Translations under genes and position numbers: made by a program
Notes under the pieces: generated by a model
Seen by the model: only the letters and a program-made list of their open reading frames with translations
The model's database searches: none
Told to the model about the DNA's origin: nothing
Assembly (NCBI GenBank): GCA_027492035.1
Contig: JAOZFT010000004.1
Coordinates: 558,001 to 622,000, forward strand
Length of the DNA: 64,000 nucleotides
Source of the DNA: Thermoproteota archaeon
GTDB taxonomy: Archaea > Korarchaeota > JAOZGF01 > JAOZFZ01
Reading direction: 5' to 3'
Part shown: positions 4,755 through 27,969 of the stretch, piece after piece
How the letters are laid out: the number at the start of each line of letters is the position of its first letter
How positions within the stretch are numbered: the stretch's first letter is position 1

Positions 4755-5840
4755 TTGTTGGTGAGAAATGAGGTGTGGATTCCTCGAGAAATTATTGAGC
4801 GAACATGGATACAGAAAATAGCTGCATCAGCTGTACTCTCCAAATTTTACAATGTCCTAGGTGAAGAAAAGTTTTCAGCTGTCCTTTATGTTACAGGCAG
4901 AGACTGGGGACTTAAACTTTTTAAAGAAAACTTTTTGTCCCCAAACAATTTATCTGAATGGAAAATCCCAATCCCCACCAACGGTTACGAAATAATGAAT
5001 CTCGTCGCTGCCTTTTTACGTAGTACATTCCCAAAGGCTGAAATCTCAATTGAAACAATTGACACACGGAAAATATCTATAATTATTGGAAAAAGTCCTC
5101 TAAGACCCCTTTTAAGAACCCCCCATGCAATCTGTTACCACGTCGCAGGCTTACTTGAATTTATCTTCTCCCAAATACTGGCGAAAACCGGTGTGAAGGC
5201 AAATGTTAAGGTAGATCTAGAATACGTAGCCGCGGAAGGTGGAGAGCCTAAAGCTACCAAATTTATAGTGGAGATTGAAAACCCCTCTAAAGAAATATCT
5301 CTTGAAACTAAGCCTCCTCATGCTGCACGTTCCCCTTTCGCTACTTCTTACAAATTAAAAAAAATTATGTTGTTCGATGAAGCAGTTTTTCTCCTTAATT
5401 CCTTCCTTGAGAAAACAAAAAACATATTGGGTGAAGAGAAATCTTATGAACTCCTTTACTTAGCAGGCCGTTCAGAAGGTAAAAGAACCTTTAAAATTTT
5501 CAGTGAAAAATATGACAGGGAAAAAATTAAACCTTTTGATAACTGGAGGAACGCAGATGAGTTTTTAGAGTCTTTGCTAAGGTACAGATTCGCACCTAAC
5601 TCAATTCCTGCCTCTTACAGAGTTAATGATAAAACTTTTGTTTTAAAACTTCTTATGAACCCCTTCACTCAAGGTGTTAAAACGAAGAAACCTTTTTGCG
5701 GCTTCTTGAAGGGAGCTTTAGAGTCGATGGTTAGCTTAACAGTTGCAAAATATGGCATAGGTAAAGGGGTGTCAGTAGAAGAGATAAAATGTAAAGCCTC
5801 CGGAGACGACCATTGTGAGTTTCAAGTTACGCTTTTGTAA
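4755..5840 (+). CDS. Tandem V4R (4-vinyl reductase-like) domain protein
   Basis: Predicted soluble ligand-binding protein, 361 aa, built from two similar halves (about residues 20-195 and 205-361). The second ends with the V4R hallmark CKASGDDHCEF (Cys346, Cys354); the first has the equivalent helix and strand but lacks the Cys pair. V4R domains bind small hydrophobic or heme-like ligands and serve as sensors or assembly factors. There is no HTH or transmembrane segment. Adjacent in-frame starts exist (TTG 4755, TTG 4758, GTG 4761); the GTG is equally plausible. It sits directly upstream of the pilus operon on the same strand, but a promoter separates them. Ligand and role are unknown. Confidence 0.75.
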   Translation: MLVRNEVWIPREIIERTWIQKIAASAVLSKFYNVLGEEKFSAVLYVTGRDWGLKLFKENFLSPNNLSEWKIPIPTNGYEIMNLVAAFLRSTFPKAEISIETIDTRKISIIIGKSPLRPLLRTPHAICYHVAGLLEFIFSQILAKTGVKANVKVDLEYVAAEGGEPKATKFIVEIENPSKEISLETKPPHAARSPFATSYKLKKIMLFDEAVFLLNSFLEKTKNILGEEKSYELLYLAGRSEGKRTFKIFSEKYDREKIKPFDNWRNADEFLESLLRYRFAPNSIPASYRVNDKTFVLKLLMNPFTQGVKTKKPFCGFLKGALESMVSLTVAKYGIGKGVSVEEIKCKASGDDHCEFQVTLL

Positions 5841-6045: not shown

Positions 6046-8298
6046 ATGAAACTTTTAATCGGTAAAAAGAAAGATAAAAAGGAAGATAAGGGTATCACTA
6101 AAAAAGCAAAAGAAAGAAAGGAAGGCCTTTCATTAAAGAAACCAGAAAAAACAATCAAAAAGAGAAAACAAATAAAGAAAGGAAGGGAAGAAGGAAAGGA
6201 GAAGAAAAAAGGGTTTCTTAACATTTTTAAAAAGAAGGAAAAAAGGGAGAAACCTAAACCATTGACAGTAAGTTACCCTCCGTCAAATTGGGTAGAAATT
6301 GAAAGACACGTAGTTGACCCCCCTGCTGAAGTAGCTATTTACCTTGACCCAGAAACACAGGAAAAAAAATACTTTGTCCTAGAACCTAAAATGACTCCGC
6401 AAGAAGAAGAAGTCTGCGAATTATTGGCAGATATCTTAAAAAAAGAAATAAAACCTCCGGAGGAAGTTGAAGACAAGAAAAAATACATTTACAGTGAAAC
6501 AGAGCGTTTAATGAAGAAATATAAACTGCATAAAAGGAAAACTGTAAGGAAAGAAATTGTTCAGTACTACATTTTCAGGGACTTGGTAAGTTTCGGGCCT
6601 TTACATGCAATAATGAAAGATGACCAAATCGAGGACATAAGCTGTAACGGGGTGGGAATACCTATTTTTGTTTGGCACAGGAGGCATGAAAGCATGGAAA
6701 CTAACATCACTTTCACAGATGAAAAATACTTGGATGATTACACCATGAAACTTGTACACATGGCTGGTAAACACGTTTCTACAGCTAGACCTGTTGTAGA
6801 TGGAATGCTGGAAGGTAAACATAGAGTTGCAGTGGGTTATAAAAAGGAAGTAACAATGAAAGGGTCAGCCTTCACAATAAGAAAATTCAGGGAAGTTCCT
6901 TTCACTATAACAGACTTGCTGGAACTTGGGACTCTTGATGAATGGATAGCAGCCTATGTTTGGCTTGCATTAGATAACAGAATGCCTCTTTTCGTGGTAG
7001 GCGCCACAGCTGCAGGTAAAACAACTCTACTAAACTGTTTAGCAACCCTTATTAAGCCCTCCTTCAAAATAGTAACAGTTGAAGAAACACCTGAAATAAA
7101 CCTGTTCCATAAAAATTGGCTTCAATTCGCTGTAAGAGAAAAATATGGGGTAAGTGAAGAAAGCGTAGGCGAAGTTTCGCTTTTCGACCTTGTAAAAGCA
7201 ACCTTAAGGCATAGACCTGATTTCTTAATCGTTGGAGAAGTTAGAGGTGAAGAAGCGAGTGTAATGGTTCAAGCAATAGCTACAGGGCACTCTGGCTTAA
7301 CAACTTTCCACGCTGAAGATGTTGACAGTGCAGTTAAACGTTTAACTCAAAGACCCCTGAACATAGCTCCAGCCTACATCCCTCTACTTAAGGTTTTTCT
7401 GATGTTAAGGAGAGTTACTTTACCTGGTACGGACAAGACTGTGAGGAGAATAGTTGAAGTTCATGAGGTTTTAGGTTACGAAGGGGATAAACTTCAAACA
7501 TTCATAGTTTCTAAATGGGATCCTGTCACCGACACATTCAAGCATTCCTTTGAGAAAAGCTACAACCTAAGGAAGATCTCTGAAGAAACAGGGGTGCCTT
7601 TTGCAGCTGTCCTTAAAGAACTTGAAAATAGGGCGTCCTTCCTTCTAATGCTGAAAAAGAAGGGAGTAAAAACCTTTGCCGGTTTAGAGGAAGAGTTAAC
7701 AAAGTATTACGCCGGAAAAATCAAAATTGAAGTTGAGGAGATCAAAGGAATCGAAACAATTGAACCTCAGCCTCCAGAAACAAAGGAAAAATTAGTTAAA
7801 GATTTAGTTACTCCTATAAAGAAAGAAGTATCTAGAAAGATCCCAGAAATAGTTTTCTCGAAACCTAAAGAAACCTTTTTTGATGAAATAACTATTCCAA
7901 AAATTCAGTATCCTCTTAGGGAAGTGGAAGAAGGTACCAAAGAAAAAATCAGTGGAGGACCAGAACAAAGGGGAAGAGTTACTCCACCTTCATCAATAGA
8001 GACAGAACCTAAAGTAAAACTTGAAATGGAAACTGTCCAGAAGCCTGAAGGTAAACTAGAAATAAAAGAAAGTGAAGAACACCTAATACGTAAGAAAATA
8101 CTGGATATTTTAGTTTTAAACAGAGGAAAAGTAACAGTTGAAGAACTAGTTAAACGCTGCGGAGAAAAAAATATTTTCTACGTTCTTGACAAAATGAAGG
8201 ATGAAGGGTTAGTTTCGACTGATGTAGCTATTGTTTCAGGAACCCCTATTTTCTACTACATCCTAACCTTAAAAGGAAGAAAAGCTGCTTTCGAGTGA
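6046..8298 (+). CDS. Type IV pilus assembly ATPase (TadA/VirB11/FlaI-type)
   Basis: Cytoplasmic hexameric secretion ATPase that powers assembly of the filament encoded downstream. Its 750 residues comprise: residues 1-72, an extremely basic tail (about 40 percent Lys); an N-terminal domain to about 300; a RecA-like core with Walker A GATAAGKTT (about 319-327), a Walker B region FLIVGEVRGEE (near 395) and the His-box segment ATGHSGLTTFHAE; then a linker and a C-terminal winged-helix domain (last 70 residues). The core resembles archaeal TadA/FlaI. The Lys tail and winged helix are extensions. ATG start with AAAGGGGT in front. It is first in an operon, 18 bp before its platform partner. Confidence 0.93.
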   Translation: MKLLIGKKKDKKEDKGITKKAKERKEGLSLKKPEKTIKKRKQIKKGREEGKEKKKGFLNIFKKKEKREKPKPLTVSYPPSNWVEIERHVVDPPAEVAIYLDPETQEKKYFVLEPKMTPQEEEVCELLADILKKEIKPPEEVEDKKKYIYSETERLMKKYKLHKRKTVRKEIVQYYIFRDLVSFGPLHAIMKDDQIEDISCNGVGIPIFVWHRRHESMETNITFTDEKYLDDYTMKLVHMAGKHVSTARPVVDGMLEGKHRVAVGYKKEVTMKGSAFTIRKFREVPFTITDLLELGTLDEWIAAYVWLALDNRMPLFVVGATAAGKTTLLNCLATLIKPSFKIVTVEETPEINLFHKNWLQFAVREKYGVSEESVGEVSLFDLVKATLRHRPDFLIVGEVRGEEASVMVQAIATGHSGLTTFHAEDVDSAVKRLTQRPLNIAPAYIPLLKVFLMLRRVTLPGTDKTVRRIVEVHEVLGYEGDKLQTFIVSKWDPVTDTFKHSFEKSYNLRKISEETGVPFAAVLKELENRASFLLMLKKKGVKTFAGLEEELTKYYAGKIKIEVEEIKGIETIEPQPPETKEKLVKDLVTPIKKEVSRKIPEIVFSKPKETFFDEITIPKIQYPLREVEEGTKEKISGGPEQRGRVTPPSSIETEPKVKLEMETVQKPEGKLEIKESEEHLIRKKILDILVLNRGKVTVEELVKRCGEKNIFYVLDKMKDEGLVSTDVAIVSGTPIFYYILTLKGRKAAFE

Positions 8299-8316
8299 AG
8301 AAGGTGCGGAAAGAAG

Positions 8317-10236
8317 GTGAAAAGGGGAATTCAATCCACTCAAACAATAAAACTTAGTTTTTTTGATAAATTGATTTCCTTTTCATTCTCTAACTTTGAA
8401 AAAATTGGTTTTTACCTATACAAAATCTTTAAACCTGTAGGGGAAAAAATGGAACTGGCGCAAATAAAAATATACCCCCCAGCCTATTTCTCATTTAGTT
8501 TTTTTGTATGTTTAGTTCTTTTCCTTGTTCTTCTGGCTTTCTCCACAATTCTGAATCTTGAAATTTACCATGTTCTCAATTTCCCCTTCTTCCATTTAAT
8601 TTTTAATTTCTTAGGTAAACCTGTATCAACCTACCAGTTTGTTGTCGTTTTCAGAGATAACCCTATCCTAAACCTGCTTTTCCTTAAACTTTTTTTCATC
8701 TTCCCTCTTCTGCTTTTCGTTATTTTCTTGGTTATTCCTGACATAAGACTTTCTATGTGGACTGAAGGATTAGAAACTGAAACTCCTTTCATTGGAACCT
8801 TTGTTTCTGTTATGGCTACTGGCGGAATAAGTCCCTATCACGCAATAAAGGCATTTGCTACAAATAAGATCCTTCCAACATTCTCCTTAATTGCCCAAAG
8901 AATAATAACTCTTGTTTCTGTTTTTGGAAAAGACCCTTTAACGGCTATCGAGGAGACAAGTAGGTACATTCCCTCAAGGGATCTGAAAGAATTGTTGACA
9001 GGTTATGTAACCTCTGTGAGGACAGGTGGAGATTTTGTACATTTCCTTTTTGTGAAAACTGAAACATTGTTCAGAGACCGGATAGTTAAGATGAGGCAAA
9101 TAGGGGAAAAAATGGGCATGTTAATGGAAGTCTTCATAGCCTTAACCATCCTTTTATCACTAGGATTATACGCAATATATATTGTGAACACAGCTTTACC
9201 TGAAACCTCGACCCCTTTCATGTCAGGAACCTCTTTCTTTGTCTTTGCATTCCTTTTCACTCCCTTCTTGTCAATGGTTTTTATTTACCTTATAGACCTC
9301 TTTGTGCCAAAGTACCCACATCCAGACTGGTCAATTTTAAAAGTTGGGATTATTTCGTTCATTATCTCCTCAATAATTTTCTTCACCTTCTTTATTGTTC
9401 CAGCTTTAAATCCATTACTCCTTTCAATCCCCTTCATAGGAAAAATCAATTCTATGTTTGACAAATTTATTTTCTCTTTGGGTTTCAGTTCTGGAGCTAG
9501 AACTCCGCTAATACTGGCTTTCTGGATAATTTTAGGCTCAGTTCCACCTGCAATTTTGGAAATTAAAAGAAGCAGAGAAGAAAGGGATGTAGAAGATAAT
9601 TTAGCCCTATTTCTAAGGGACTTGGTGGAAGCTAGAAAGGCAGGATTATCCCCTGAAAAATGCATAATTCAGTTAAAAGATAGAGATTATGGCTTCTTTT
9701 CGAAAAGGTTAAAGGTAATAGCTAATCAGTTGTCTTGGGGTGTCCCCCTACGAGAAATTTATCGTTACTTTGCTTCCACCACACGAACATGGCTCTCAAA
9801 AATGTTAGTGTTTCTACTTGTTGAAGCAATAGATTACGGGGGAGGATCAGTGAAAACCCTTGAAAGCTTGGCTATGTACAGTGAAATGATGAAAAGCGTC
9901 CAAAAAGAGAAAGAAGGAAACTTAAAACCTTTATTGATAGTTGTTTACTTAGGAACACTAATACTTGTTGTTGCAGTTATTCTTCTGCTCAGTTTCGTAA
10001 ATGTTTCATTGAAAATAGCAGGTTCAGGAGTTGCTTATGAATCCTTCCTTTCAAAGTTTGTTTCACCAATAATTATAAACGTTGCACTTTCAGGTTTAAT
10101 TGCAGGCAAAATTTCTTCAGGTTCAGTATCCACAGGGTTTAAACACATAGTTGCCTTGACTACGATTACCGTATTGGCACTGTGGTTAACTCCAATGATA
10201 TCCTCCATATTGGCTGCTTCATCAATCCCCCACTAA
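8317..10236 (+). CDS. Type IV pilus platform membrane protein (TadC/FlaJ-type)
   Basis: Polytopic inner platform on which the ATPase acts. Its 639 residues hold two T2SSF-type cytoplasmic domains (around residues 150-265, including GTFVSVMATGGISPYHAI, and around 430-535, including FLRDLVEARKAGLSPE), each flanked by hydrophobic helices, for about nine transmembrane segments. This doubled architecture is that of archaeal TadC/FlaJ proteins. The GTG start follows GGAAAGAAG and lies 18 bp after the ATPase stop, so the two are co-transcribed. Archaeal ATPase/TadC pairs of this sort drive archaella, adhesive pili or uptake pseudopili; no FlaC-H genes are nearby, so a pilus is more likely than an archaellum. 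Confidence 0.9.
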   Translation: MKRGIQSTQTIKLSFFDKLISFSFSNFEKIGFYLYKIFKPVGEKMELAQIKIYPPAYFSFSFFVCLVLFLVLLAFSTILNLEIYHVLNFPFFHLIFNFLGKPVSTYQFVVVFRDNPILNLLFLKLFFIFPLLLFVIFLVIPDIRLSMWTEGLETETPFIGTFVSVMATGGISPYHAIKAFATNKILPTFSLIAQRIITLVSVFGKDPLTAIEETSRYIPSRDLKELLTGYVTSVRTGGDFVHFLFVKTETLFRDRIVKMRQIGEKMGMLMEVFIALTILLSLGLYAIYIVNTALPETSTPFMSGTSFFVFAFLFTPFLSMVFIYLIDLFVPKYPHPDWSILKVGIISFIISSIIFFTFFIVPALNPLLLSIPFIGKINSMFDKFIFSLGFSSGARTPLILAFWIILGSVPPAILEIKRSREERDVEDNLALFLRDLVEARKAGLSPEKCIIQLKDRDYGFFSKRLKVIANQLSWGVPLREIYRYFASTTRTWLSKMLVFLLVEAIDYGGGSVKTLESLAMYSEMMKSVQKEKEGNLKPLLIVVYLGTLILVVAVILLLSFVNVSLKIAGSGVAYESFLSKFVSPIIINVALSGLIAGKISSGSVSTGFKHIVALTTITVLALWLTPMISSILAASSIPH

Positions 10237-10267
10237 AAAAATTGTTTTAAAATAAGGTGTAAAAATT

Positions 10268-11185
10268 TTGGTTCGGTTGAAAGATTTTTTAAGGGTGAAC
10301 AGAAAGGAAGGAATGAAGGGAATATCACCAGTCATATCAATAGCAATCATAACCTTCTTTATACTTGGAGCCATTCTTATGGCTTACTACTTCATAAACA
10401 ACCTTGTACTCCTTAATGAAGGAGAGAAAGAGTTTAAGTTAGCGGAAGCCTCCATGATAAACTTTGCAAGAGACGTTGAAAGTGTAGCGTGGAACCTACA
10501 CTCCACCCAAAGTTCACAGTTCATACCGAAATATGGGTATCTACAGGTTTTAACTAATATATACAAGTTCAAGGTATTTGTTAATTACTCTTCAAGCCCT
10601 GACGAAATAGTAACTGATGCTGCACTTTTCCGCATGCCTGTTAGAAAATACACTAGGGGAAACAATTACCTCCAAAACCTCTATCCAGCAGCAAGTAAAC
10701 CGGAACCCATAAACTTCACAACTGAAAACATAAACGATCCCTTCATGAGGGTTTTCTCAGTTGAGAAACTACAGTACACAGACACAATAGATACAGTAAC
10801 TGTCCCAAGGGTTAAAATAATTAAGGAAGTATTTAAGTCACAAAACAGAAACATTACAAGGATTTGGGTGAAAATAATTAAACTTAAAAAATCCAGTTAC
10901 CCGGGAAAACCTCAACCAAACTACTTAGTTGCAACTTGCATAAACACTTCAGCTAAAGTTTATTCTTACCAAGTTAACTTGACGCAACTTCAAGCACTAA
11001 ACCTAAGAATCGAAATTGAACCACTGAACTTGCCCAACGACTATTTACAATTTAGAACCACTCCCTACAGTTTAAACATAAGAGACTTCCTGTTTAACGA
11101 ATTTTGTGGGGGTTATGCCTGCAGCGCCTGTACAGATGTTGAAATAATTATCGATGTAGCTGAAGTGGAGGTTAGGGTGTTTTAG
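10268..11185 (+). CDS. Pilin-like secreted subunit with KGISPV N-terminus
   Basis: 305 aa. The N-terminus carries a charged leader followed by KGISPVISIAII and a hydrophobic helix (about residues 17-42), the arrangement recognised by archaeal prepilin peptidases; cleavage after the Gly is expected. The rest is a beta-rich extracellular domain with N-x-S/T sequons and a C-terminal cysteine group FCGGYACSACTD, suggesting disulfides or metal binding outside the cell. The TTG start is 31 bp after the platform gene. No family name recognised for the globular part. As the most canonical pilin in the operon it may be a major or tip subunit. Confidence 0.75.
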   Translation: MVRLKDFLRVNRKEGMKGISPVISIAIITFFILGAILMAYYFINNLVLLNEGEKEFKLAEASMINFARDVESVAWNLHSTQSSQFIPKYGYLQVLTNIYKFKVFVNYSSSPDEIVTDAALFRMPVRKYTRGNNYLQNLYPAASKPEPINFTTENINDPFMRVFSVEKLQYTDTIDTVTVPRVKIIKEVFKSQNRNITRIWVKIIKLKKSSYPGKPQPNYLVATCINTSAKVYSYQVNLTQLQALNLRIEIEPLNLPNDYLQFRTTPYSLNIRDFLFNEFCGGYACSACTDVEIIIDVAEVEVRVF

Positions 11186-11204
11186 ATGAAGGTGTTTTTA
11201 AGAA

Positions 11205-11699
11205 ATGCCAGCAGTAACTATTAGTCGTGTAATATTGTTTGCTGCAATGATAGCCTTAACTCTTTTCATGTTTTACAGAGCCCTGGTTTACCAAGGTTAC
11301 TATAGAGCCCAGACGTTCAGGGAATCAGCTAAAACAGTAGCGTATTTGATAGCTAACCAAATACAGCAGCTTTACGTTCTAGCTCAAAGCCCTGAAATAG
11401 AGAATGAAACAACTATACAGAAAATTTTAGATAAGCCAAACTCAATAGGTCTAAAACCATACAATTTATCTTTCATTTTAGAGGAGTATGTTAAAGGGGG
11501 AGAAACCCATAAAATAATAGAGGTTAAAGTTGTTTCTGGAAGAAACGCTACTGCATTGGTTCCTGTTGGAGATGATGTTGAACTACAACCCTCTTCGGTA
11601 ACTCTTCCCGGGTATAGACCAGTGACAGCTAATTGTTACAAAGAATTATTTGTTAACGGCTCAACAAATTATGTCTTTTCATTTACTGGGGGTGGTTGA
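11205..11699 (+). CDS. Small membrane-anchored pilus-operon subunit
   Basis: 164 aa, with one N-terminal hydrophobic helix (about residues 8-28) starting almost at the initiator Met, then an extracellular domain with sequons (NET, NLS, NAT, NGS) and a Gly-rich C-terminal end. No typical class III leader is visible, so it may be a simple signal-anchored minor pseudopilin. ATG start, with AAGGTG about 10 bp upstream. The stop codon overlaps the possible TTG start of the next gene, showing translational coupling. Function is inferred only from the operon. Confidence 0.6.
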   Translation: MPAVTISRVILFAAMIALTLFMFYRALVYQGYYRAQTFRESAKTVAYLIANQIQQLYVLAQSPEIENETTIQKILDKPNSIGLKPYNLSFILEEYVKGGETHKIIEVKVVSGRNATALVPVGDDVELQPSSVTLPGYRPVTANCYKELFVNGSTNYVFSFTGGG

Positions 11700-12907
11700 A
11701 AGAAATGCCTTTTTCAGCAAGTATAGATTACGTTTTAGCAACTGTTATTTTGATGCTGATTATTTACCCCTTCCTAATGATTTCAATGGATAATGTAATG
11801 ATGCGTACAGTTAAAGTGAACAGTAAAGTTTCACTTTACCAAGAAGCAAACATTTTCCTTGATAACATGCTCCTATCCTACGGTTCACCAATAAACTGGT
11901 ACTTAAGCCAGAATCACAGCTTCAGTTACCCTATAGCTTTCGGTTTAGCTAAAACAAATGCTTCAAGCTACATATTAAGCCCTTTCAAAACAATGAGAAT
12001 AACACCTACTCAGCAAGTTGACTTAACAGGTCAACCAAGCGGTTTAGGAGTTGTTGAAGCCCTTTTTTACGACCCAACCACAAATTTTACATGTGTAGCC
12101 CCCACTTACTACTATGTACCGTACAGCTTTGTTTTAAACAATACAGGACTTGAAAATGCAGGTTTCAAGCTTGTTTTCACTCCTTTATTAGAAGTTTATA
12201 TGTTAACGCCTCAAGTAAGTGGAGGAAACATAATTTTCCCCCTTAAAATCACTAATGATAACGAACCGGTTCCAGAAGCCTCAATTAAAGGTTTCCTTTT
12301 CTATTTAAAAGACGAAAATGCTTCAATTTACCATAAATTTAACACCTCCCAAACAAATTATAAAGGGGAAGCATTCCTCACCTTCAACTATTTGCCACCT
12401 AAAGAATACCTCCTCCTAGTTGCGGTTTTAAGCGGTGATGAAGCAAACTACTGGTACTATTACCAAAGAGATTCCAACCTTTCATTTATTCAAACAGAAA
12501 TAGAAACCAGTAACCAAATCAAAGTTGTTAACAACAGAGGCCAAAACCTCAACTTCACAGTAATGCAGGTTTTGATTTCTAAAGATTCCCCTAAAGCATT
12601 TGTCCCCAGTACAATCGTTGAAAATGAGGAATTGGTAAGTGGGGATGGAGAAACAGTGAATTTAACTATTTCACAATCATATCTCTTATTAGCTGCAAAG
12701 GAGCTCAGTGGAGAAAAGGAAGGACACATTTACCTCCTCCCTTTTGGGCTGTTTGCAGGCGAAATCAAGCAGACACCACAAAGAACAGAATACCCCTATG
12801 GTGGAAACATATTACAGAGCCTAGAAACAATTACAGCCCAAAGAAACATAAGGGTGGGCGATATATCCTATAGAGTGAATTTTTACTTTTGGCCCCTAAG
12901 CAGGTGA
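11696..12907 (+). CDS. Pilus-operon extracellular protein with Ig-like segment
   Basis: 403 aa, with an N-terminal transmembrane anchor (about residues 11-30, IDYVLATVILMLIIYPF) and a long extracellular region. Residues about 170-255 (NGNEPVPEAS-type segment, YKGEAFLTFNYLPPKEY) resemble a beta-sandwich of the Big/CarboxypepD_reg type found in adhesins. Many N-glycosylation sequons. Two starts are possible: TTG 11696, which overlaps the preceding stop, or ATG 11705. It could be a minor pilin or adhesive subunit; no specific family recognised. Confidence 0.65.
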   Translation: MKEMPFSASIDYVLATVILMLIIYPFLMISMDNVMMRTVKVNSKVSLYQEANIFLDNMLLSYGSPINWYLSQNHSFSYPIAFGLAKTNASSYILSPFKTMRITPTQQVDLTGQPSGLGVVEALFYDPTTNFTCVAPTYYYVPYSFVLNNTGLENAGFKLVFTPLLEVYMLTPQVSGGNIIFPLKITNDNEPVPEASIKGFLFYLKDENASIYHKFNTSQTNYKGEAFLTFNYLPPKEYLLLVAVLSGDEANYWYYYQRDSNLSFIQTEIETSNQIKVVNNRGQNLNFTVMQVLISKDSPKAFVPSTIVENEELVSGDGETVNLTISQSYLLLAAKELSGEKEGHIYLLPFGLFAGEIKQTPQRTEYPYGGNILQSLETITAQRNIRVGDISYRVNFYFWPLSR

Positions 12908-12916
12908 AGGAGAGAA

Positions 12917-14296
12917 ATGAAGAAAAACTTCAAGGAAATTTTCAAGAAAAGGAAAGGATGGCTTAGAACATTTGAACTCATATTGGCAGTGCCTATTGTA
13001 GCCTTTATAGTCTTATTTGCCGCCTACCTGGCACCAACCCCTTCACCTCAACAATACACTACGGTTCAACTTAAAGGGTTCGCCCTCAGCACACTTTCAA
13101 AATTAAACCAAAGAGGATACTTAACCCACGCAGTATATAATGAAGATTGGTTAGGATTAAAAAAGGAACTAGACACCTCCTTCCCTCCAAACATAATATA
13201 TAACTTCACAGTTTACAGGTACCAAGAAATAAATAAAACAGTGAGGCTTGGAGAAAAAATTAAAGAAGTGAGACTTGTAAAGGTAGGGCAAATCACCAAC
13301 TTTAAGGGTGTAAATAAACCTAAATGGGCTGAATCAGTGAATTACCATGTGTCAACCGCCCAAGTCACCTTCACGGTTGAGACGCAGAAATTAAACAAAA
13401 CAATTTATTTACTAGGTTGCACAGATGCTCCAGGATGGTGGATAACCGGTTATACTCCACACTCTTTAGCAATCCTAATGAAAAATTACTTAGACCCCTA
13501 CTTCACAAACGTGACAATAATAAATGACACAGATCAACTTGAAAACCTGTTTTTAAACCCACCAAACGGAACAATAATTATTAACTGCCACGGAGTAGCT
13601 GTGCCAATTCCTTCAAACTATGTTTCAGGAAATCTTCCAAACTGGCAAAGCTATATGCAAGATATTCGTGCAGGGATCATAAACCATAATTGGACATGGA
13701 TGAACATAGTAGGTTACCCATTCACCTATGTTTCAAACAGAAACTATGATAACTGTAACGACTGGGTTTGTGTCTGGGGGTGGATTGTTCAGCTTCTTAC
13801 AGGAGGAGATATTAGTGGTGAATGGGACTGTCAGTGCTGGACTTGGTGGGGAGTAACCGGGTTGTACGGTATAGGTCCCCCAGGATTAAGTATAGTAGTG
13901 ACCGGTTCATCCTCAACAGATAGCAGAATAAGTGACATAGGGGTTGTTAATGCAACCCAACTTGGTTTAGAGACAATGAACACTTACGGTATCCAGTACT
14001 CTCCTAACCAGTCCTTTTCAAGAGCTCTTGACCGTTCATGGATGGAAAGCAATGGTTGGCAGGTTCAACTTGAAACCTTTGAAGAAAGAAACGGTTATTG
14101 TTCAGCTGCGGTTTTCAACAGAAGCAACAGCAGCGGAAAACTAATAAACATCGGGTTATCAAGGCCTCCAGAACCAAGGGTTCCAGTTGTTACATTGCTT
14201 GCTTTAACCCATCCTAAACTTGAGCAAAGGATAGCTTCCATTGAGCAAGATTTAAGAGTTATTGTTTTGCAACTTACATATATTAGTGGTGGTTAA
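12917..14296 (+). CDS. Large pilus-operon surface protein, Trp/Cys-rich
   Basis: 459 aa. A basic N-terminus (KKNFKEIFKKRKGW) precedes a hydrophobic anchor (about residues 21-41) and a large extracellular domain. The middle contains IIINCHGVAVPIP and then a stretch of about 35 residues with four Cys and many Trp (13751-13849). The first part of that domain could have a Rossmann-like or GATase-like fold, but this is a guess. The gene is 9 bp after the previous stop and 6 bp before the next gene, so it is certainly in the operon. Probable minor filament subunit or cell-surface adhesin. Confidence 0.65.
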   Translation: MKKNFKEIFKKRKGWLRTFELILAVPIVAFIVLFAAYLAPTPSPQQYTTVQLKGFALSTLSKLNQRGYLTHAVYNEDWLGLKKELDTSFPPNIIYNFTVYRYQEINKTVRLGEKIKEVRLVKVGQITNFKGVNKPKWAESVNYHVSTAQVTFTVETQKLNKTIYLLGCTDAPGWWITGYTPHSLAILMKNYLDPYFTNVTIINDTDQLENLFLNPPNGTIIINCHGVAVPIPSNYVSGNLPNWQSYMQDIRAGIINHNWTWMNIVGYPFTYVSNRNYDNCNDWVCVWGWIVQLLTGGDISGEWDCQCWTWWGVTGLYGIGPPGLSIVVTGSSSTDSRISDIGVVNATQLGLETMNTYGIQYSPNQSFSRALDRSWMESNGWQVQLETFEERNGYCSAAVFNRSNSSGKLINIGLSRPPEPRVPVVTLLALTHPKLEQRIASIEQDLRVIVLQLTYISGG

Positions 14297-14302
14297 AGGA
14301 AT

Positions 14303-16444
14303 ATGTTAAAGAAAAAATCTGTGCTAAAAAATGTAAAAAGGCTGCAGCATAAAATATTCAGTAGGAAAGCGCAAGTTTACATGTTAGGAATAATTCTTAT
14401 GGCATTGTTCCTCTTATCGACAGCTTTATTCCTTTATGTTAACACTTTAAGCCAAAGAGAAAGCTACTACGTCTACAGCGAAAATTTTGCTTCGTTAACC
14501 CAGTCAGTTAAAGAAGCTATTGAGAAAGTTGTTGCAGGAGCACTGGCGACGTACACAACCATTTTAGATGTTTCAGGGAACTCTTCCTTTGCAAGAATAA
14601 AGGCTGAAGAAGTTTTAAATGCGGGAATAAGGGTGCTCACGTCTTCCTTCTCCAATTACGGTCTTGAATTAAAGTATGAACCAGTAAACTGCTCTTTAGC
14701 AGATGAGGAACATCCTTACAGAAAAATAACCAGTGACGAAGTTTTTAAGGCCTACTGGTTCTACCCTGACAGTATTTCAGGTGTAGGAATAAGGTTTAGT
14801 TTTAATCTAACTGAAGTAGGGCTGTATAATTACAAAGTTTCAGGCCACGGCTCAGCATATTTTTCATTAAAAGTTAAGGTTCTGGAATCGAAAAGAAACA
14901 TTGTAAAAATATCGGTTACTGGAGAGGGGAATGTACCGGTTCTTAACCTGGATGAAACCATGATAAAATTATTTATCTATAACGGCTCAGTAAGAGAATG
15001 GGTGGAGGAAACACCGGAAATAGTTACAATTTTCCAAAACGGAACTTACATTCTTAACCATACAATACCTCCAAACTTCCATTTACCAACTATAAGTGGC
15101 GGGGTTGTACCAATAGCTTTAAAGGTTAGAGATCACAGGGGAGTAATAGTTAACGCTTTCGCTGTTCCAAGTTACACATACTCCCTTAGCATTAACCAGC
15201 CATACAATGGAAGAGACCCAAGTAAGGCTGTTTATGAAGTAGAGGTGCAAAATGATGGTGTGTGGCGTTTCTTGGGTCAAGAACTTGAATCCAGTAACTG
15301 CGACTACGGCCCAGTTCCGCCCTTGCCTGTGAGGTTGTTAAGAGTAAACGCCTCAAATGAAGTTATTCCTTTCCAAGTTGAGGACTGGAACAGCAACTTA
15401 ACAATTCCTTTAGGGTTATCTAACCCACATACTCATTTCCAAAAATCTAATAAGTTAGTGTTTCTCCTCAATTCAACTTTCAACACCGTAAAAATTTGGT
15501 GGAGTGACGACATGGACGCTGAACAAATAATAAACAAAACAGACCTGCAATATGACCCTGCAACGCGTTGGCACAGCAACACCTACTACAAAGGAAGAAT
15601 GGAAAAGTTGACAGTGCTTGGTTTTGATTTCCCAATTCCTCAATTAGCTCTTCAACATGCAGGGCATGAAGATGAATACATATTTGGAACTATAAACTCT
15701 CTCCCTCCATTCGGCTGGGCATCTTATTCAGACCCTGTCACTAACTGCCAAGCAAGGAACATGCTTTCGGTAGAAATGGAGTATCAATGGCAAACTTTAT
15801 TCTCATCTACACCTGATACATATGTTTTACTCATTGTTACTTTTCCAGCGCATGCAAAATACGCAACTTTCACGCTTCACTTAATAACTGATCGAGTGAC
15901 AGCTAAATCCATTTCTAACTTTGAAGTTTTGCGGTCATATAGAACATTTGCCCATTTCGCGGTTCAAGCGCATGATGATAACCAGTTCCAAGGATGTGGC
16001 TGTCTCCTTTGCCCTCCTCCCTACAAATTCTGTAATGATACTTCATGCAATATACACTGCTGTTGCCTCTGGTTTATAAGGTGCCTAGAATGGTGTGACT
16101 ACAATCAAGACAATGGTGAACATCATTGGTTAGCTCGATGGAATGACGATTTTGGTACAGGTTTAATGCTTACAACTAAAAATCTTGAACAACTCTATAA
16201 CTTCAGTTCAAGGGGGGGCATAATAATTGGTTTACTTAACGCATTATACTTAAAACCTGTCGACAATACTTTACTTTCCTCCTGCACTACAGGAAATTGG
16301 GTTTTAAGTGCTAATGGAAAATACGAAGTTTACACTTGGCAAGGGTTAATATGGATTTATGGAGGGGGCAGTTACCAAGAAATAGAGGATTACAGTGTAA
16401 TGGTGAGGGAGCCGCCAGAAATCTTAAGCATTTCTTCAACCTAA
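14303..16444 (+). CDS. Large pilus-operon surface protein with ten-Cys knot
   Basis: 713 aa, the last gene of the operon. N-terminal basic segment, then SRKAQVYMLGII and a hydrophobic helix (about residues 28-52), like a pseudopilin anchor; the remainder is an extracellular beta-rich region with many sequons. Near residues 565-600 ten Cys occur within about 35 residues, including a CCC triplet, an arrangement suited to a disulfide-rich knot or metal site. The C-terminal part follows it. Size and position suggest a tip adhesin or a specialised binding subunit. No database family recognised. Confidence 0.65.
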   Translation: MLKKKSVLKNVKRLQHKIFSRKAQVYMLGIILMALFLLSTALFLYVNTLSQRESYYVYSENFASLTQSVKEAIEKVVAGALATYTTILDVSGNSSFARIKAEEVLNAGIRVLTSSFSNYGLELKYEPVNCSLADEEHPYRKITSDEVFKAYWFYPDSISGVGIRFSFNLTEVGLYNYKVSGHGSAYFSLKVKVLESKRNIVKISVTGEGNVPVLNLDETMIKLFIYNGSVREWVEETPEIVTIFQNGTYILNHTIPPNFHLPTISGGVVPIALKVRDHRGVIVNAFAVPSYTYSLSINQPYNGRDPSKAVYEVEVQNDGVWRFLGQELESSNCDYGPVPPLPVRLLRVNASNEVIPFQVEDWNSNLTIPLGLSNPHTHFQKSNKLVFLLNSTFNTVKIWWSDDMDAEQIINKTDLQYDPATRWHSNTYYKGRMEKLTVLGFDFPIPQLALQHAGHEDEYIFGTINSLPPFGWASYSDPVTNCQARNMLSVEMEYQWQTLFSSTPDTYVLLIVTFPAHAKYATFTLHLITDRVTAKSISNFEVLRSYRTFAHFAVQAHDDNQFQGCGCLLCPPPYKFCNDTSCNIHCCCLWFIRCLEWCDYNQDNGEHHWLARWNDDFGTGLMLTTKNLEQLYNFSSRGGIIIGLLNALYLKPVDNTLLSSCTTGNWVLSANGKYEVYTWQGLIWIYGGGSYQEIEDYSVMVREPPEILSISST

Positions 16445-19373: not shown

Positions 19374-20704
19374 ATACCTTTGATTTTTTAGAGTTAGCTG
19401 TTAAAGAAGCTGAAAAAATGGGAGCTTCTGAAGCTGAAGCTTTTCGCGAGGAAGTGGATAGCTTAGAAGTAAAATTTGAAAAATTAACAATTAAAGAAAC
19501 AAAAAGAAGTTTTGTTGCAGGTTTAGGTTTAAGAGTAACTGTTGATAAACACATAGGGTTTGCTTACACTTCCCAGTTATCAAAGAAGAAAATCCTTGAA
19601 ACAGTTGATAAAGCCTTGAAAATAGCTAAACTTAAACCCAAAGATCCTAACTGGATTTCGTTACCTCAACCTAAAAAATACAGGAAAGTGAAGGATGTGT
19701 TTGATGCTGAAATAAACAATATGGAGCTTGAACAGTTAATTGATCCAACACTAACTTTGATTCAGAGCATGAAAATTAACAAGAAAATAGTTTCTGGAAG
19801 CGGCGGAATTTCTGTTAGTAAATGGGAAAAACTTATCTTAAACAGTTATGGGCTTCAAGGAAACGATAAAGGAACATCTATATTTGCTTCAGCCTTTTCC
19901 ATTTCTTCTGACAATGAAGAAACAGGTACAGGGATGGATTTCGCAACTTCAACCCGTTTCAAAAACATTAATTTTGAAGAAATCGGGAAAAATTCTTCAG
20001 AAACAGCTTTGAAACAGCTTGGTAAAAAGAAAATTGAAACCTTTGTGGGAGATATAGTTTTCCATCCGTTTGCTTTCGCAGACCTTCTTCAACAAATACT
20101 TGCGCCTGAACTTTACGGCGACAACGTCTTCAAAAAGAAAACACCATTTTATTCAAAGTTAAACCAAAAAATTTCAACTAAGAATTTTACATTGATAGAT
20201 AACGGCTTATACCCCGCAGGTTTAGGAAGTTCAAGCTTCGACGATGAAGGAACACCTACACAGGAAACAGTTCTTCTTGAAAAAGGGGTTCTGAAAGGGT
20301 TTCTTTACGATAATTACTGGGCTGGAAGGGAAAAGGTTGAAAGCACCGGAAATGCTTCAAGAAGTTATTCAGGTGAACCTTCAATTTCTTTTTCGAACTT
20401 AATCGTTAAACCTGGAAACAAAAATTTAACCGGGATATTAAGCGAAATAGAGGAGGGAATTTACGTTATTTCTTTAATAGGAACTCATACAGCTAACATT
20501 CCTTCAGGTAACTTTTCAGTAGCATCCTACATGCCTTTCAAGATAGAGGAAGGAGAAATAATGTACCCAATTAAACAGGCAATGATTTCAAGTGACACAT
20601 CAACTTTATTGAGTAAAATAGATGAAGTAGGTAAAGATTTAAAGGTGGTAGGGGGAGTTGTTACTCCACCAATTAAAGTGAAAAATGTGGCTGTTTCAGC
20701 TTAA
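19370..20704 (+). CDS. tldE: TldE/PmbA subunit
   Basis: Partner of TldD, 444 aa, same fold but without the HExxxH metal site, as expected for TldE. Conserved SSFDDEGTPTQETVLLEKGVLKGFLYDNYWA and GNASRSYSGEPSISFSN segments are present. GTG start inside the tldD stop (4-bp GTGA overlap) indicates coupled translation and equal stoichiometry. Its 3' end overlaps the end of the convergent AbiEii gene by 9 bp. Confidence 0.93.
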   Translation: MNTFDFLELAVKEAEKMGASEAEAFREEVDSLEVKFEKLTIKETKRSFVAGLGLRVTVDKHIGFAYTSQLSKKKILETVDKALKIAKLKPKDPNWISLPQPKKYRKVKDVFDAEINNMELEQLIDPTLTLIQSMKINKKIVSGSGGISVSKWEKLILNSYGLQGNDKGTSIFASAFSISSDNEETGTGMDFATSTRFKNINFEEIGKNSSETALKQLGKKKIETFVGDIVFHPFAFADLLQQILAPELYGDNVFKKKTPFYSKLNQKISTKNFTLIDNGLYPAGLGSSSFDDEGTPTQETVLLEKGVLKGFLYDNYWAGREKVESTGNASRSYSGEPSISFSNLIVKPGNKNLTGILSEIEEGIYVISLIGTHTANIPSGNFSVASYMPFKIEEGEIMYPIKQAMISSDTSTLLSKIDEVGKDLKVVGGVVTPPIKVKNVAVSA

Positions 20705-21712
20705 CTTTATTATTTCCCTTATTTCCTCCCTAACCCTCCCAACATATTCTTTCCATTCATACTTTCTAGATGGAAGAATAAATTCTCTTCTTGTTTCAAA
20801 TAATTTCCCATACTTAGTAAGTACTGAAATGTTTCTTTCAACTTGTTCAAACAGTTTTCTTGGTAAAACTGCACGTCTAGCCCTGTACAAGTAATCAATT
20901 CTTTTCTTGAAAAGGGAGATGTCAAGTTTTAATTTTAACAACTGGCCTAAATCGTAAAGGTCACAAAGGTGATCTCTTAAACTTAACTCTAAAGGTTTCC
21001 CAAGCCTAGATATTTTTTCAGCTATACAGTACTCAGGAGGAAAAACAAGTCCTTTAGCTTTCAAAACAGGTTTTTCGATTTTCTCTAAAATTGAAGGTAT
21101 CACTTTAGACTTAAAACTTTCAATAGGTTCTTTTTCATTAATTGAAACAGTTAACCTAACATAATCTAGTGAAGGAAGGAAGCCTAGTTCCTTTTTCATT
21201 CTCAGGAAATACATTGTTAACTTGTCTATTTCTTCCCCCCTTCTCAAAACATACCTTGGCAAGGAAACACCTACTGAATAAGTTGACATGAGTCTCCTGA
21301 GAGATAATAAATCAATAAAAACGTTTTTTTCAGCATCTATTTCGAAAAAGCCTAAATTAACTTTCACTTCATTACAAACCAGCTCATATGTTCCCCCCAA
21401 CTGTTCAATACACTTATTCAGTTTATCTAAACTATATCCCTTCTTACTTGAAAGGTTTGAAACTAAGTCTATGTCCCAACTGAACCTTGGAATTTCAGAA
21501 TACAAACGAGAAATCAATGTGCCACCCTTTAAACAAACAGGCACAGGTGAACACCTTAGTATTTGCGTTAAGGTGTCGTAAAAAATTATTTCTCGTTCAA
21601 CAACGCTTCTTGGAAGTTTCAGTTTCACCGCTAGTTGATCTATTTCTTCCAACCTAAGAATTTTTTTTCTCCAGGATTTAACTGCCCAATACATGCTGAA
21701 CAGCTTCTTCAA
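20696..21712 (-). CDS. AbiEii-type nucleotidyltransferase toxin
   Basis: Predicted toxin of an AbiE (type IV) toxin-antitoxin/abortive-infection pair. Characteristic AbiEii residues are LKGGTLISRLY (Lys62-Gly-Gly-Thr) followed by RFSWDIDLV (Ser78, Asp80, Asp82), the polymerase-beta-like catalytic site; PEYCIAEKISRL and RDHLCDLYDLGQLL match later conserved blocks. 338 aa is typical. Homologues use NTPs to modify tRNA or other targets. The frame opens with TTG 21712, overlapping the antitoxin gene by 35 bp; ATG 21694 would reduce the overlap to 17 bp. Convergent with tldE. Activity is not proven. Confidence 0.82.
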   Translation of the reverse strand: MKKLFSMYWAVKSWRKKILRLEEIDQLAVKLKLPRSVVEREIIFYDTLTQILRCSPVPVCLKGGTLISRLYSEIPRFSWDIDLVSNLSSKKGYSLDKLNKCIEQLGGTYELVCNEVKVNLGFFEIDAEKNVFIDLLSLRRLMSTYSVGVSLPRYVLRRGEEIDKLTMYFLRMKKELGFLPSLDYVRLTVSINEKEPIESFKSKVIPSILEKIEKPVLKAKGLVFPPEYCIAEKISRLGKPLELSLRDHLCDLYDLGQLLKLKLDISLFKKRIDYLYRARRAVLPRKLFEQVERNISVLTKYGKLFETRREFILPSRKYEWKEYVGRVREEIREIIKLS

Positions 21713-22478
21713 TCATCAACAAAACTTTTCTAGGCAACTTAACTTTTCCCTTCCCCTCAACAACCCCTGCTGTAGTCAATATAGCATTAAGAATATTTAA
21801 TGTATTCTTTGCTGAATATCTCTCCTTAGCAATTTTTAACACATCCTTTATTTCCACTATGGGGGAAAGCAGCAACTCAACAACGTCATCCAGTTTATCA
21901 ACCAAGTCTACCCTTCTCAAGACATCAATTATGGCTTTTTCAACAGTTGCAACTGGGGCTTGTCCACTCCACCCTCTAAAACTGACTTCTATTTCGTCGT
22001 AATCTTCAGGAAAAATTTTTTCTTCTTCAATAATAACTTTTACTGGTGAATAGGCGGATAAAGGGCCTCTTACCTTCACTATTCCCCTGTCCCCAATTAA
22101 ATGAAGCATATTCGGCTCCATAGTGAGATCTCTAGTTAACCCTCTAACTATAATTGCTGTTTCTCCTGTTAAATAATACTGGCCGAAACTTGAAAGAACA
22201 CTGAATATGTCCTTGAGTACCATAGTTTTCCTTTCAGTATTGAAAAGGTTCTCCAACACTTTAAAGTATGGGCTTAATAAATTTATTCCAATGGTCCTAG
22301 CTGCAGGGTTGTAAACAACAACTCCTTTCATTTCCGTTATTTGGGCATAGACTGTTGAAGGGGAACAGCCTGCCCTTTTAGCTAGTTCAGTGACCGTGAA
22401 ACTTTTTTCAGGGTTTAAAGCCAAAATCCTCAATACAGAAATTTTACAGCTTGACCCTAAAAATGTTTCAAGAAACAT
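21678..22478 (-). CDS. AbiEi-like winged-helix antitoxin/regulator
   Basis: 266 aa. Residues about 1-65 form a winged helix (FTVTELAKRAGCSPSTVYAQI as the recognition part). The remainder resembles the AbiEi/nucleotidyltransferase-like C-terminal domain (ATVEKAIIDVLRRVDL). Being directly upstream of and overlapping the AbiEii gene, it is best read as the cognate antitoxin and autorepressor. ATG start at 22478 lies inside a 9-bp-arm palindrome (22461-22480), with two further palindromic sites just upstream. Sequence similarity to bacterial AbiEi is weak, so an archaeal variant is likely. Confidence 0.72.
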   Translation of the reverse strand: MFLETFLGSSCKISVLRILALNPEKSFTVTELAKRAGCSPSTVYAQITEMKGVVVYNPAARTIGINLLSPYFKVLENLFNTERKTMVLKDIFSVLSSFGQYYLTGETAIIVRGLTRDLTMEPNMLHLIGDRGIVKVRGPLSAYSPVKVIIEEEKIFPEDYDEIEVSFRGWSGQAPVATVEKAIIDVLRRVDLVDKLDDVVELLLSPIVEIKDVLKIAKERYSAKNTLNILNAILTTAGVVEGKGKVKLPRKVLLMIEEAVQHVLGS

Positions 22479-25832: not shown

Positions 25833-26663
25833 ATGTGGCAAATAATTGAATGGTTATCTTCAGCGAGAATATCCGTTACACTTCTCCTACTTCTCACCGC
25901 CTCACTTCAAGACGTAAAAGAAAGAGAAGTTTCAGATAAAATCTGGGTCTCTGGAATACTTGCAGGCTTAATCATTGATGTAATAGATTTTATTTCCTTC
26001 CCAGACATAACTCTTTTAACAACAATTACCCTTTCATTCTCCGCAATGTTCCTACTCTCCCTTTTAACTTTTTATTTAGGCTTCTTCGGCGGAGCAGATT
26101 CAAAAGCACTAATAACCATTGCTTTATTGAACCCATACCACCCAATTCCGTCGCTGCAAAACAAAACATTACCAATTTTCACTTTATCAGTTTTCTTAAA
26201 CAGTTTACTTGTTTCAATGACAGTCCCCCTTGCACTTTTCCTCAAAAACTTCACAGAAATAGTTAAAGGGAAAAAATTATTTGAAAATTTAGAAAAAACA
26301 AAACTATACACGTTAAAAAAAACCCTTCTAATGTTTACAGGCTACAAAACGAAAATCACAGAATTAAACAGCAAAAAATTCGTCTTTCCACTTGAAGAAA
26401 TCAAAATAAAAAGCTCCATAAACCAAGAAGGAATAGAGAAAAAAGAGGTGGAAAGAAAAATTAAATTTCTCCCGGAAATGAACAAAGAAAACCAAGAAGA
26501 AAACTATTTAAACCTTAAAAAAATGGTTAAAGAAGGGGAGATAAAAAATCAAATATGGGTTTCTCCAGGTTTACCCTTCATCCTCTTCCTATTGACAGGT
26601 TACATACTAACTCTAGTCTTAGGTGACATACTAACAAAAACAATATTGTCACTAAACACTTAA
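25833..26663 (+). CDS. Archaeal prepilin peptidase (FlaK/PibD-type, A24)
   Basis: Membrane aspartic protease that removes class III leaders from pilins and archaellins. 276 aa. The two catalytic aspartates are Asp27 in SLQDVKEREVSD and Asp89 in GGADSKALI, the A24 GxGD-type motif. About six hydrophobic segments. Between about residues 140 and 240 there is a long Lys/Glu-rich cytoplasmic stretch, then a final helix. ATG start with GGGGAAG upstream. It is located next to pilin genes and 9 kb from the pilus operon whose products it probably processes. Confidence 0.88.
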   Translation: MWQIIEWLSSARISVTLLLLLTASLQDVKEREVSDKIWVSGILAGLIIDVIDFISFPDITLLTTITLSFSAMFLLSLLTFYLGFFGGADSKALITIALLNPYHPIPSLQNKTLPIFTLSVFLNSLLVSMTVPLALFLKNFTEIVKGKKLFENLEKTKLYTLKKTLLMFTGYKTKITELNSKKFVFPLEEIKIKSSINQEGIEKKEVERKIKFLPEMNKENQEENYLNLKKMVKEGEIKNQIWVSPGLPFILFLLTGYILTLVLGDILTKTILSLNT

Positions 26664-26866: not shown

Positions 26867-27349
26867 TTGCTGCATCTCTTCAACTACAAAAAAAAATTTA
26901 GAAAAGAGAAGGCAACCTCAACCCCGGTTACAACAATCATTCTAGTGGTGATAGGGATAAGTTTAGCTTTAACGTTGGCGTTAATAGCCTCAAACATTTT
27001 CACTACAAACTCGCAAATAGAGAAAGTTCAGGTAACAAATTTAGGATGTTACGAAAACCAAAAAAACCTAACAATAAAGTTTGAAATCTCCAATAAAGGA
27101 AGCGCAGCAGCCACAATAACCTCCATACTAGTAAATGGAAAACCAGCTGAAAACTTCTTCGACTACTTCAACAAAACAACCCAGAAAAAATTCAAAAAAA
27201 TACACTTAAACCCAGGAGAAACAAAAAAATATACTCTAATAGATAGCTTCCTCAACTCAACTGAAAGAAAAATAAAAAGAGGAGTAACTTATCAAATAAT
27301 TTTTCAAACAGCTAAAGGAAACAGTTACATTGAACAAGTAACTACTTAA
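26867..27349 (+). CDS. Small pilin-like membrane-anchored protein
   Basis: 160 aa. Charged leader, then STPVTTIILVVIGISLALTL (positions about 18-38), like the archaeal pilin N-domain with the SPV core as TPV, and a short extracellular beta domain (VTNLGCYENQKNLTIKFEI) with four or more sequons. TTG start preceded by GGAGGAC. Similar in organisation to the pilin at 28139 (NGKPA, then a VTYQI..QTAKG ending resembling VTYEITLHTASG). Likely processed by the peptidase just upstream. Confidence 0.75.
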   Translation: MLHLFNYKKKFRKEKATSTPVTTIILVVIGISLALTLALIASNIFTTNSQIEKVQVTNLGCYENQKNLTIKFEISNKGSAAATITSILVNGKPAENFFDYFNKTTQKKFKKIHLNPGETKKYTLIDSFLNSTERKIKRGVTYQIIFQTAKGNSYIEQVTT

Positions 27350-27384: not shown

Positions 27385-27969
27385 CTAAAGCAAATGGATA
27401 TCTCTCTTAATCTTCAAGGAGTAAATTATTAAAGCAGCCCCGCATGCAATAAAAACCTCCAAGAAACCAGCTTTAAGAAGTTCAAAAACGCTACGGGTCA
27501 AATCAAACCAATAAATCAAAGAAAGAATCACAGTTAAAGAAAAAATAAAAGTACCCACAAAAAGTAAAACATTTGAAAACCTATCCCTCTTCCTTCTATA
27601 CTCAGGATCCGCCTTAAACAAATTACAAGCCTTAACCTTAACCCTTTCAGGCACCTTAACATTTTCAATTTCCTTAACGGCTTCAGAAACAAAAGAAACA
27701 GCTTTAAAAGCCTCCTCCCTAGAAGGAAAAAAATCTTTATGAAGACAGGAATTCCTCAATTTACGAAGTCCATGCAACTGCCTCCAATGAGGAATCCTAA
27801 CACCATGGTCCTTTGCAAAATAAAGAATATCAACTAAACCAGCCCTGTGAAAATCAGGGATGCCGAACACAACCCTAAGCCTTAACTCCAAAGCCTTAAC
27901 AGCATAAATAATTGCAGCTTCATAAAAACCAGAATCCAAAGCCTTCCAAGCCTTAATTAATAAATCCAA
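27385..27969 (-). CDS. HEPN-domain protein with two transmembrane helices
   Basis: 194 aa. Residues 1-115 form an all-helical HEPN-like domain with the RX4H motif, Arg72-Asn-Ser-Cys-Leu-His77, which in many HEPN proteins is an RNase site. A linker and two hydrophobic helices (about 131-153 and 164-185) follow, so the HEPN domain faces the cytoplasm at the membrane. No MNT antitoxin gene is adjacent. It is divergent from the pilin at 28139 with 169 bp between them. Could be a membrane-tethered RNase or a non-catalytic HEPN scaffold. Confidence 0.7.
   Translation of the reverse strand: MDLLIKAWKALDSGFYEAAIIYAVKALELRLRVVFGIPDFHRAGLVDILYFAKDHGVRIPHWRQLHGLRKLRNSCLHKDFFPSREEAFKAVSFVSEAVKEIENVKVPERVKVKACNLFKADPEYRRKRDRFSNVLLFVGTFIFSLTVILSLIYWFDLTRSVFELLKAGFLEVFIACGAALIIYSLKIKRDIHLL

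Follow-up and report, generated by a model that had tools for sequence, protein, structure and literature searches.

Architecture of the operon and its motor genes

Which surface machine is built by an archaeal operon that joins an assembly ATPase and a membrane platform to five proteins matching no family model, and what are these five proteins? The question arose from one stretch of 64,000 nucleotides (hereafter the window; G000:C9:558001-622000) in an archaeal genome of 1.87 Mb and 42 contigs. An earlier note on this stretch had described an ATPase and a TadC/FlaJ-like platform followed, with tight spacing or overlap, by five proteins with a single N-terminal helix each, and our analysis bore out this description. 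Seven co-directional ORFs were present between positions 6046 and 16444, encoding the ATPase, the platform and the five proteins, here called P1-P5 (Table 1). The successive intergenic gaps were 18, 31, 19, −4, 9 and 6 nt, the last five of them covering the stretch from the platform to P5. One membrane helix was predicted for each of the five proteins, with its start at residue 4-28. The ATPase scored 109.8 bits against the Pfam T2SSE model (cut-off 24.9), and the platform scored 72.4 bits against T2SSF in two stretches (cut-off 25.2). The ATPase was 60% identical to its orthologue in G001, the only other genome of the same family that was compared. The profile of the platform matched two neighbouring half-size ORFs in other archaea, that is, a pair of half-size TadC genes. 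Only the ATPase and the platform matched Pfam or NCBIfam models at threshold; the window copies of P1-P5 gave no such match.

The highest-scoring NCBIfam models for the ATPase were FlaI and BasE, both under their cut-offs, and the TadA-family model of the Tad pilus was likewise not reached (166.1 bits, cut-off 373.15). The FlaI model gave the best score of all, 375 bits, as would be expected if the operon encoded a swimming filament (archaellum). This value is, however, below the 550-bit cut-off, no accessory genes of an archaellum were evident among the neighbours, and archaellin (PF01917) was absent genome-wide at E 0.1 in a search whose control was positive in archaellated species. An archaellum is thus highly improbable, in agreement with the earlier argument against motility.

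Table 1. Pilus-related features of the window; positions refer to the 64,000-nucleotide stretch.
Feature	Position	Strand	Evidence
V4R-domain protein adjoining the operon, possible regulator	4755..5840	+	Pfam V4R 1.1e-11
Assembly ATPase, VirB11/FlaI-type secretion ATPase, 750 aa	6046..8298	+	Pfam T2SSE 1.6e-31
TadC/FlaJ-type platform, 639 aa, two T2SSF stretches	8317..10236	+	Pfam T2SSF 4.2e-20
P1, minor pilin of DUF7289 type, 305 aa, site KG/ISP	10268..11185	+	Profile match to distant P1, 98%
P2, minor pilin of DUF7266 type, 164 aa	11205..11699	+	Profile match 89%; weak single-sequence match
P3, minor pilin of DUF7287 type, 403 aa	11696..12907	+	Profile match 53%
P4, minor pilin of DUF7288 type, 459 aa	12917..14296	+	Profile match 98%
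P5, minor pilin, DUF7261-like, 713 aa	14303..16444	+	Profile match 73%
Prepilin peptidase, A24 with Arc_PepC_II C-terminus	25833..26663	+	Peptidase_A24 3.7e-10, Arc_PepC_II 2.3e-23 (Pfam)
Small PilA-like pilin, major-pilin candidate, 160 aa	26867..27349	+	29-32% identity to the 28139 pilin
Small PilA-like pilin, best major-pilin candidate, 144 aa	28139..28573	+	KKGISPVIATVII motif; Pilin_N sub-threshold, 0.015
Third small PilA-like pilin, 147 aa	49355..49798	−	65% identity to the 28139 pilin

A prepilin peptidase and small pilins occur in the same window

The peptidase listed in Table 1 was the sole A24 match in the whole genome, and two small PilA-like pilins (26867-27349 and 28139-28573) are encoded next to it. 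Each of the three small pilins of the window possessed the typical helix, and Pilin_N was matched below threshold only (0.015 for the 28139 pilin). The pilin at 28139 was 45% identical to the pilin encoded immediately after the five-gene set in a distant locus, L124. Stand-alone major pilins encoded apart from the motor genes are normal in archaea (PMC4858521). The view that the subunits are mainly large therefore holds for the operon and fails for the system as a whole, given the small pilins and the peptidase elsewhere in the window. Taken as a set, the genes almost certainly build an archaeal type IV pilus, a hair-like surface fibre.

These findings also bear on a short pseudopilus or surface-complex machine of the T2SS or bindosome kind, in which a stub of P1-P5 would display or move substrate-binding proteins and no long fibre would form. 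Bindosomes and pseudopili are known relatives, which we counted in favour of this reading, as we did the operon's own content of exclusively minor-type, mostly large subunits and the scores that the motor proteins reached against the BasE and BasF models (246.7 and 57 bits). Those scores, however, lie far under the NCBIfam cut-offs of 1000 and 1300 bits, the window contains small PilA-like pilins and the peptidase, such a pilin directly follows the quintet in L124, and no secretin, exoprotein or sugar-binding gene was found within the operon. We consider such a machine unlikely. The earlier proposal of a filament or pseudopilus-like machine with specialised tips is retained for the pilus machine (T2SSE, T2SSF) and its tips, and no positive support was obtained for the pseudopilus or secretion part.

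The operon is conserved and its five-gene set is doubled in a sister genome

Contig 53 of G001 encodes the ATPase, the platform and a quintet of 303, 166, 416, 425 and 659 aa. Straight after it comes another complete quintet, set B, with lengths of 285, 191, 333, 170 and 293 aa (L014 13433-17270). Contig 159 of the same genome, identical to L008 (Thermoproteota archaeon Flange_M5_B4), carries an ATPase, a platform and the start of another quintet of the second type. BLAST comparison of the two kinds of quintet linked in-register pairs for P1 (down to 7e-5), P2 (down to 3.9e-6) and P4 (1.9e-11). According to hhalign, four of the five pairs (P1-P4) were in register, the best partner being the expected one with 69% for P1, 53% for P2, only 5% for P3 (196 columns) and 97% for P4; the P5 proteins of the two quintets had short motifs in common in the alignment and no hhalign match. 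These data suggest that the whole minor-pilin set was tandemly duplicated in G001. In G002, a genome of the same order that is 71% complete, the operon does not come after the ATPase. Gene order is kept in G001, and related arrangements extend far beyond the phylum, so the objection that the operon might not be conserved in relatives, which the earlier note had named as decisive against its reading, falls away.

Both genomes have a V4R-domain protein (36% identity) and a HEPN-like membrane protein (56% identity) that adjoin the operon or lie in the window. The V4R homologue of G001 is located after the double quintet. The HEPN-like protein, 194 aa long with C-terminal membrane segments, is encoded among the small pilins in the window (27385-27969, minus strand) and immediately upstream of the pilus operon in G001 (L014 2190-2774, plus strand); it is a possible pilus-associated factor.

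The five proteins correspond by profile to five minor-pilin types in distant archaea

Profile searches in 297 archaeal genomes detected relatives of P4 in 31 and of P1 in 50, counts that include the window's own genome and G001 as well as many weak matches. Among the neighbourhoods inspected, the order P1-P2-ATPase-TadC-TadC-P3-P4-P5 was found in many small genomes (L106, L107, L118, L119, L122 and L137), and L141 shows it as far as the contig extends. Genomes of the euryarchaeal type (L132-L135 and L140) have the order P3-P4-P5-P2-P1. In L124 the order is platform-P1-P2-P3-P4-P5, followed by the PilA-like pilin; there, P1 alone is supported by sequence and P2-P5 are assigned mainly by position, entirely so for P3-P5, which the profiles failed to match.

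Three sets of profiles were compared, representing the window clade (A), distant loci defined by position (D) and euryarchaeal loci (X). Between A and D, the hhalign values on the diagonal were 98, 89, 53, 98 and 73% for P1 to P5, those of P1 and P4 not being independent, since matches to one or other of these two proteins had led to the D loci, and no off-diagonal value exceeded 17%. The in-register pairing was the best of all 120 permutations in the A-D, A-X and D-X comparisons, matrices that are not fully independent, a combined profile having been used in part to label X; in A-X, the values for P3 and P5 were weak. When single sequences were used, P1 and P4 scored well above the controls, P3 and P5 moderately so (against D) and P2 hardly, with a control set that probably still contains some unlabelled members. 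Among the families of phylum-mates, counterparts were matched for P1 (94%), P2 (81%) and P3 (94%), and weakly for P4 (10%); profile comparison found none for P5 in these families. One phylum-mate family ('iii') had been considered as P5, wrongly, as its profile matches P1. On these profile comparisons, P1-P5 correspond one to one to five minor-pilin types of distant archaea, P2 and P5 being the weakest links of the five-way match.

Family assignment and closest known systems

The correspondence provides family names for the five proteins. In the euryarchaeal quintets, P1 is DUF7289, P2 DUF7266, P3 DUF7287 and P4 DUF7288 according to Pfam, and P5 resembles DUF7261 below the cut-off; whole-genome scans also placed DUF7288 on P4 and DUF7287 on P3 of the euryarchaeal loci. 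Haloferax volcanii and Methanosarcina acetivorans are laboratory archaea with the set, the former having matched DUF7289, DUF7288 and DUF7287 as a control. The sister-genome protein P1b (L008) passes the DUF7289 threshold with 28.3 against 27 bits. The window P1 did not reach the DUF7289 gathering cut-off, and the window P2-P5 had no Pfam match to DUF7266, DUF7287, DUF7288 and DUF7261, their link to these families being made through profile comparison with the euryarchaeal members. The five proteins had been thought to belong to no recognised family. This remains correct for the window copies at threshold and no longer holds once the sister P1b and the euryarchaeal DUF set are taken into account. 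Makarova et al. described arCOG02911 as a signature minor pilin that is variable in length and duplicated (PMC4858521); judging from size, tandem copies and context, it is probably the same family as DUF7289.

The closest known systems are the euryarchaeal type IV pili (Clade 2, PilB4 type, arCOG02911; Makarova et al. 2016, PMC4858521; Pfam DUF7289, DUF7266, DUF7287, DUF7288 and DUF7261). They contain the same five pilin types by profile, together with a prepilin peptidase and PilA-type pilins encoded on their own; their ATPase and TadC genes lie either within the operon or at another site. In contrast to them, the window has copies that score under the Pfam thresholds, far longer P3-P5 proteins, a platform made as a single long chain and the gene order ATPase-platform-P1-P5. 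The pili of small-genome archaea (L106, L107, L118, L119, L122, L137 and L141) likewise combine the five minor-pilin types with the same motor, have P1 ahead of P2 and share the P3-P4-P5 order with the window. They differ in that the motor and two half-size TadC genes stand between P2 and P3, and in that the extra regions of their P4 proteins have no sequence similarity to that of the window P4. The bacterial PilHIJK/GspHIJK proteins and the modular pilins of S. sanguinis are alike in role, a conserved minor-pilin set priming and capping the filament. Bacterial modular minor pilins can also bear grafted adhesive domains (PMC10191384), and the likeness to P1-P5 is one of role only; the archaeal set differs from the bacterial core set in comprising five proteins.

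N-terminal signatures and enlarged outer regions

Prepilin-type sites of the KG or KA kind were recognised by eye on P1, P4 and P5. The N-terminal signature is [KR]G-[IV]S in P1 and KG-Q or KA-Q in P5, and all 17 aligned members of P4 have an acidic residue at +6 from the glycine or alanine of the cleavage site. No obvious cleavage site was seen by eye in the window P2 and P3, relatives of which in other lineages possess one.

P4 consists of a pilin core and an extra domain of about 300 aa, and P5 of an N-terminal pilin part and a long C-terminal region. The 170 aa copy of P4 in set B of G001 has no extra domain, and the 293 aa copy of P5 in the same set is without about 300 C-terminal residues. 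Because the short set has neither, the two stretches of about 300 residues look like grafted domains at the sequence level. The enlarged member varies by lineage: P4 in L107, L118 and L137, P2 in L133 and L140, P5 in L135, P3 in L111, and P3-P5 in the window. This variation fits surface-exposed, fast-changing tips.

Models obtained with AF2 were of low confidence (mean pLDDT 38.6 for P4 and 47.1 for P2), with only the N-terminal helix modelled well, and so gave no confirmation of the beta-rich character described in the earlier note. Searches against PDB sequences gave no match for P1 and no convincing match for the P4 extra domain. A ThuA/amidotransferase-like fold of the P4 extra domain, common to other lineages, was considered and dropped: ThuA-type matches were sub-threshold only and occurred in a distant P4, hhalign detected no similarity between the P4 extra domains of different lineages, and the P4 model was poor. 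Cysteine-rich insertions were also noted in P4 (approximately 13742-13892) and P5 (15990-16100, GCGCLLCPPPYKFCNDTSCNIHCCCLWFIRCLEWC), and the G001 orthologues are without them; they may be disulphide or metal sites special to this genome.

The same genome carries a second pilus-like locus (L011 7119-14758, G000 contig 38), which comprises genes for an ATPase, a CARDB-domain protein, two TadC-type proteins of small size and four small proteins with a single helix each. No similarity between its subunits and P1-P5 was found by hhalign.

With a second ATPase/TadC locus in the genome, P1-P5 could be structural subunits of a heteropolymeric filament with no separate major pilin, the small pilins serving the L011 motor; the possibility that all pilins of this sort belong to the filament was raised by Makarova et al. 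(PMC4858521). Shaft subunits would nevertheless not be expected to reach 713 aa or to vary so strongly in size from lineage to lineage, a PilA-like gene lies immediately after the quintet in L124, and archaea usually have stand-alone major pilins. A heteropolymer of this kind is, in our estimate, distinctly unlikely.

A proposed adhesive pilus with a five-member tip set

We favour a type IV pilus used for adhesion, whose minor pilins, P1-P5, would prime fibre formation and make up the tip, bearing outer domains acquired by grafting, and assign this reading a probability of roughly 0.78. The A24 peptidase would trim the prepilins; P1-P5 would then assemble on the platform into a fibre-priming complex that remains at the tip, in the manner of the bacterial PilHIJK/GspHIJK proteins; and the small pilins (28139-28573 and its paralogues) would be inserted at the base to build the shaft, with the ATPase providing the drive. 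The enlarged outer regions of P3, P4 and P5 could present adhesive or binding surfaces, hence a pilus for attachment rather than swimming, and adhesion would be a likelier use than secretion or swimming. M. maripaludis requires minor pilins for piliation (PMC3875500), and in bacteria conserved minor pilins form tip complexes, some modular members of which bear grafted adhesive domains (PMC10191384). We infer the tip or priming complex of P1-P5 from this analogy and from the behaviour of the set, which duplicates as one cassette and probably also acts as one. The five proteins most likely represent a fixed set of fibre-tip subunits, in the same relative order in distant archaea and with some members enlarged here.

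The system belongs to a known kind of pilus; its underexplored side is that the five-pilin set looks ancient and appears to travel as a cassette. A broader proposal, which we judge to be evenly balanced, is that P1-P5 correspond in archaea to the core minor pilins of bacteria. They would form an ancient five-member priming and tip set that predates the split of small-genome (DPANN-like), euryarchaeal and TACK-like lineages and is passed on and duplicated as one cassette, and each member could acquire large outer domains by grafting. Published work traces the main pilus variants of euryarchaea back to a simple ancestor that had a single minor pilin (PMC4858521). The five-way match, weak as it is for P2 and P5, argues for a richer ancestor, and an ancient five-member set, if true, would replace the published ancestral euryarchaeal-type pilus (PMC4858521).

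Pilus initiation and the make-up of the tip are poorly known in archaea. A fixed five-pilin set would be recognisable by gene order and N-terminal motifs even where Pfam matches are lacking, and many archaeal genes annotated as 'hypothetical' would become testable parts of pilus tips. The 'orphan' subunits of a fast-evolving lineage would find their place in an old, ordered set, and the double quintet of G001 suggests one way in which pilus tips could be changed, by swapping the whole set.

Other loci in the window

Two further observations were made in the window. On the minus strand, a gene for an AbiEii-family nucleotidyltransferase adjoins one for an AbiEi-like winged-helix protein, the latter recognised by eye (20696-22478); the two probably form a type IV toxin-antitoxin pair. 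On the plus strand, positions 33414-35099 encode a predicted membrane protein with a cysteine/glycine tail, SCVCACVSCACACACVSCACACAGGGAG.
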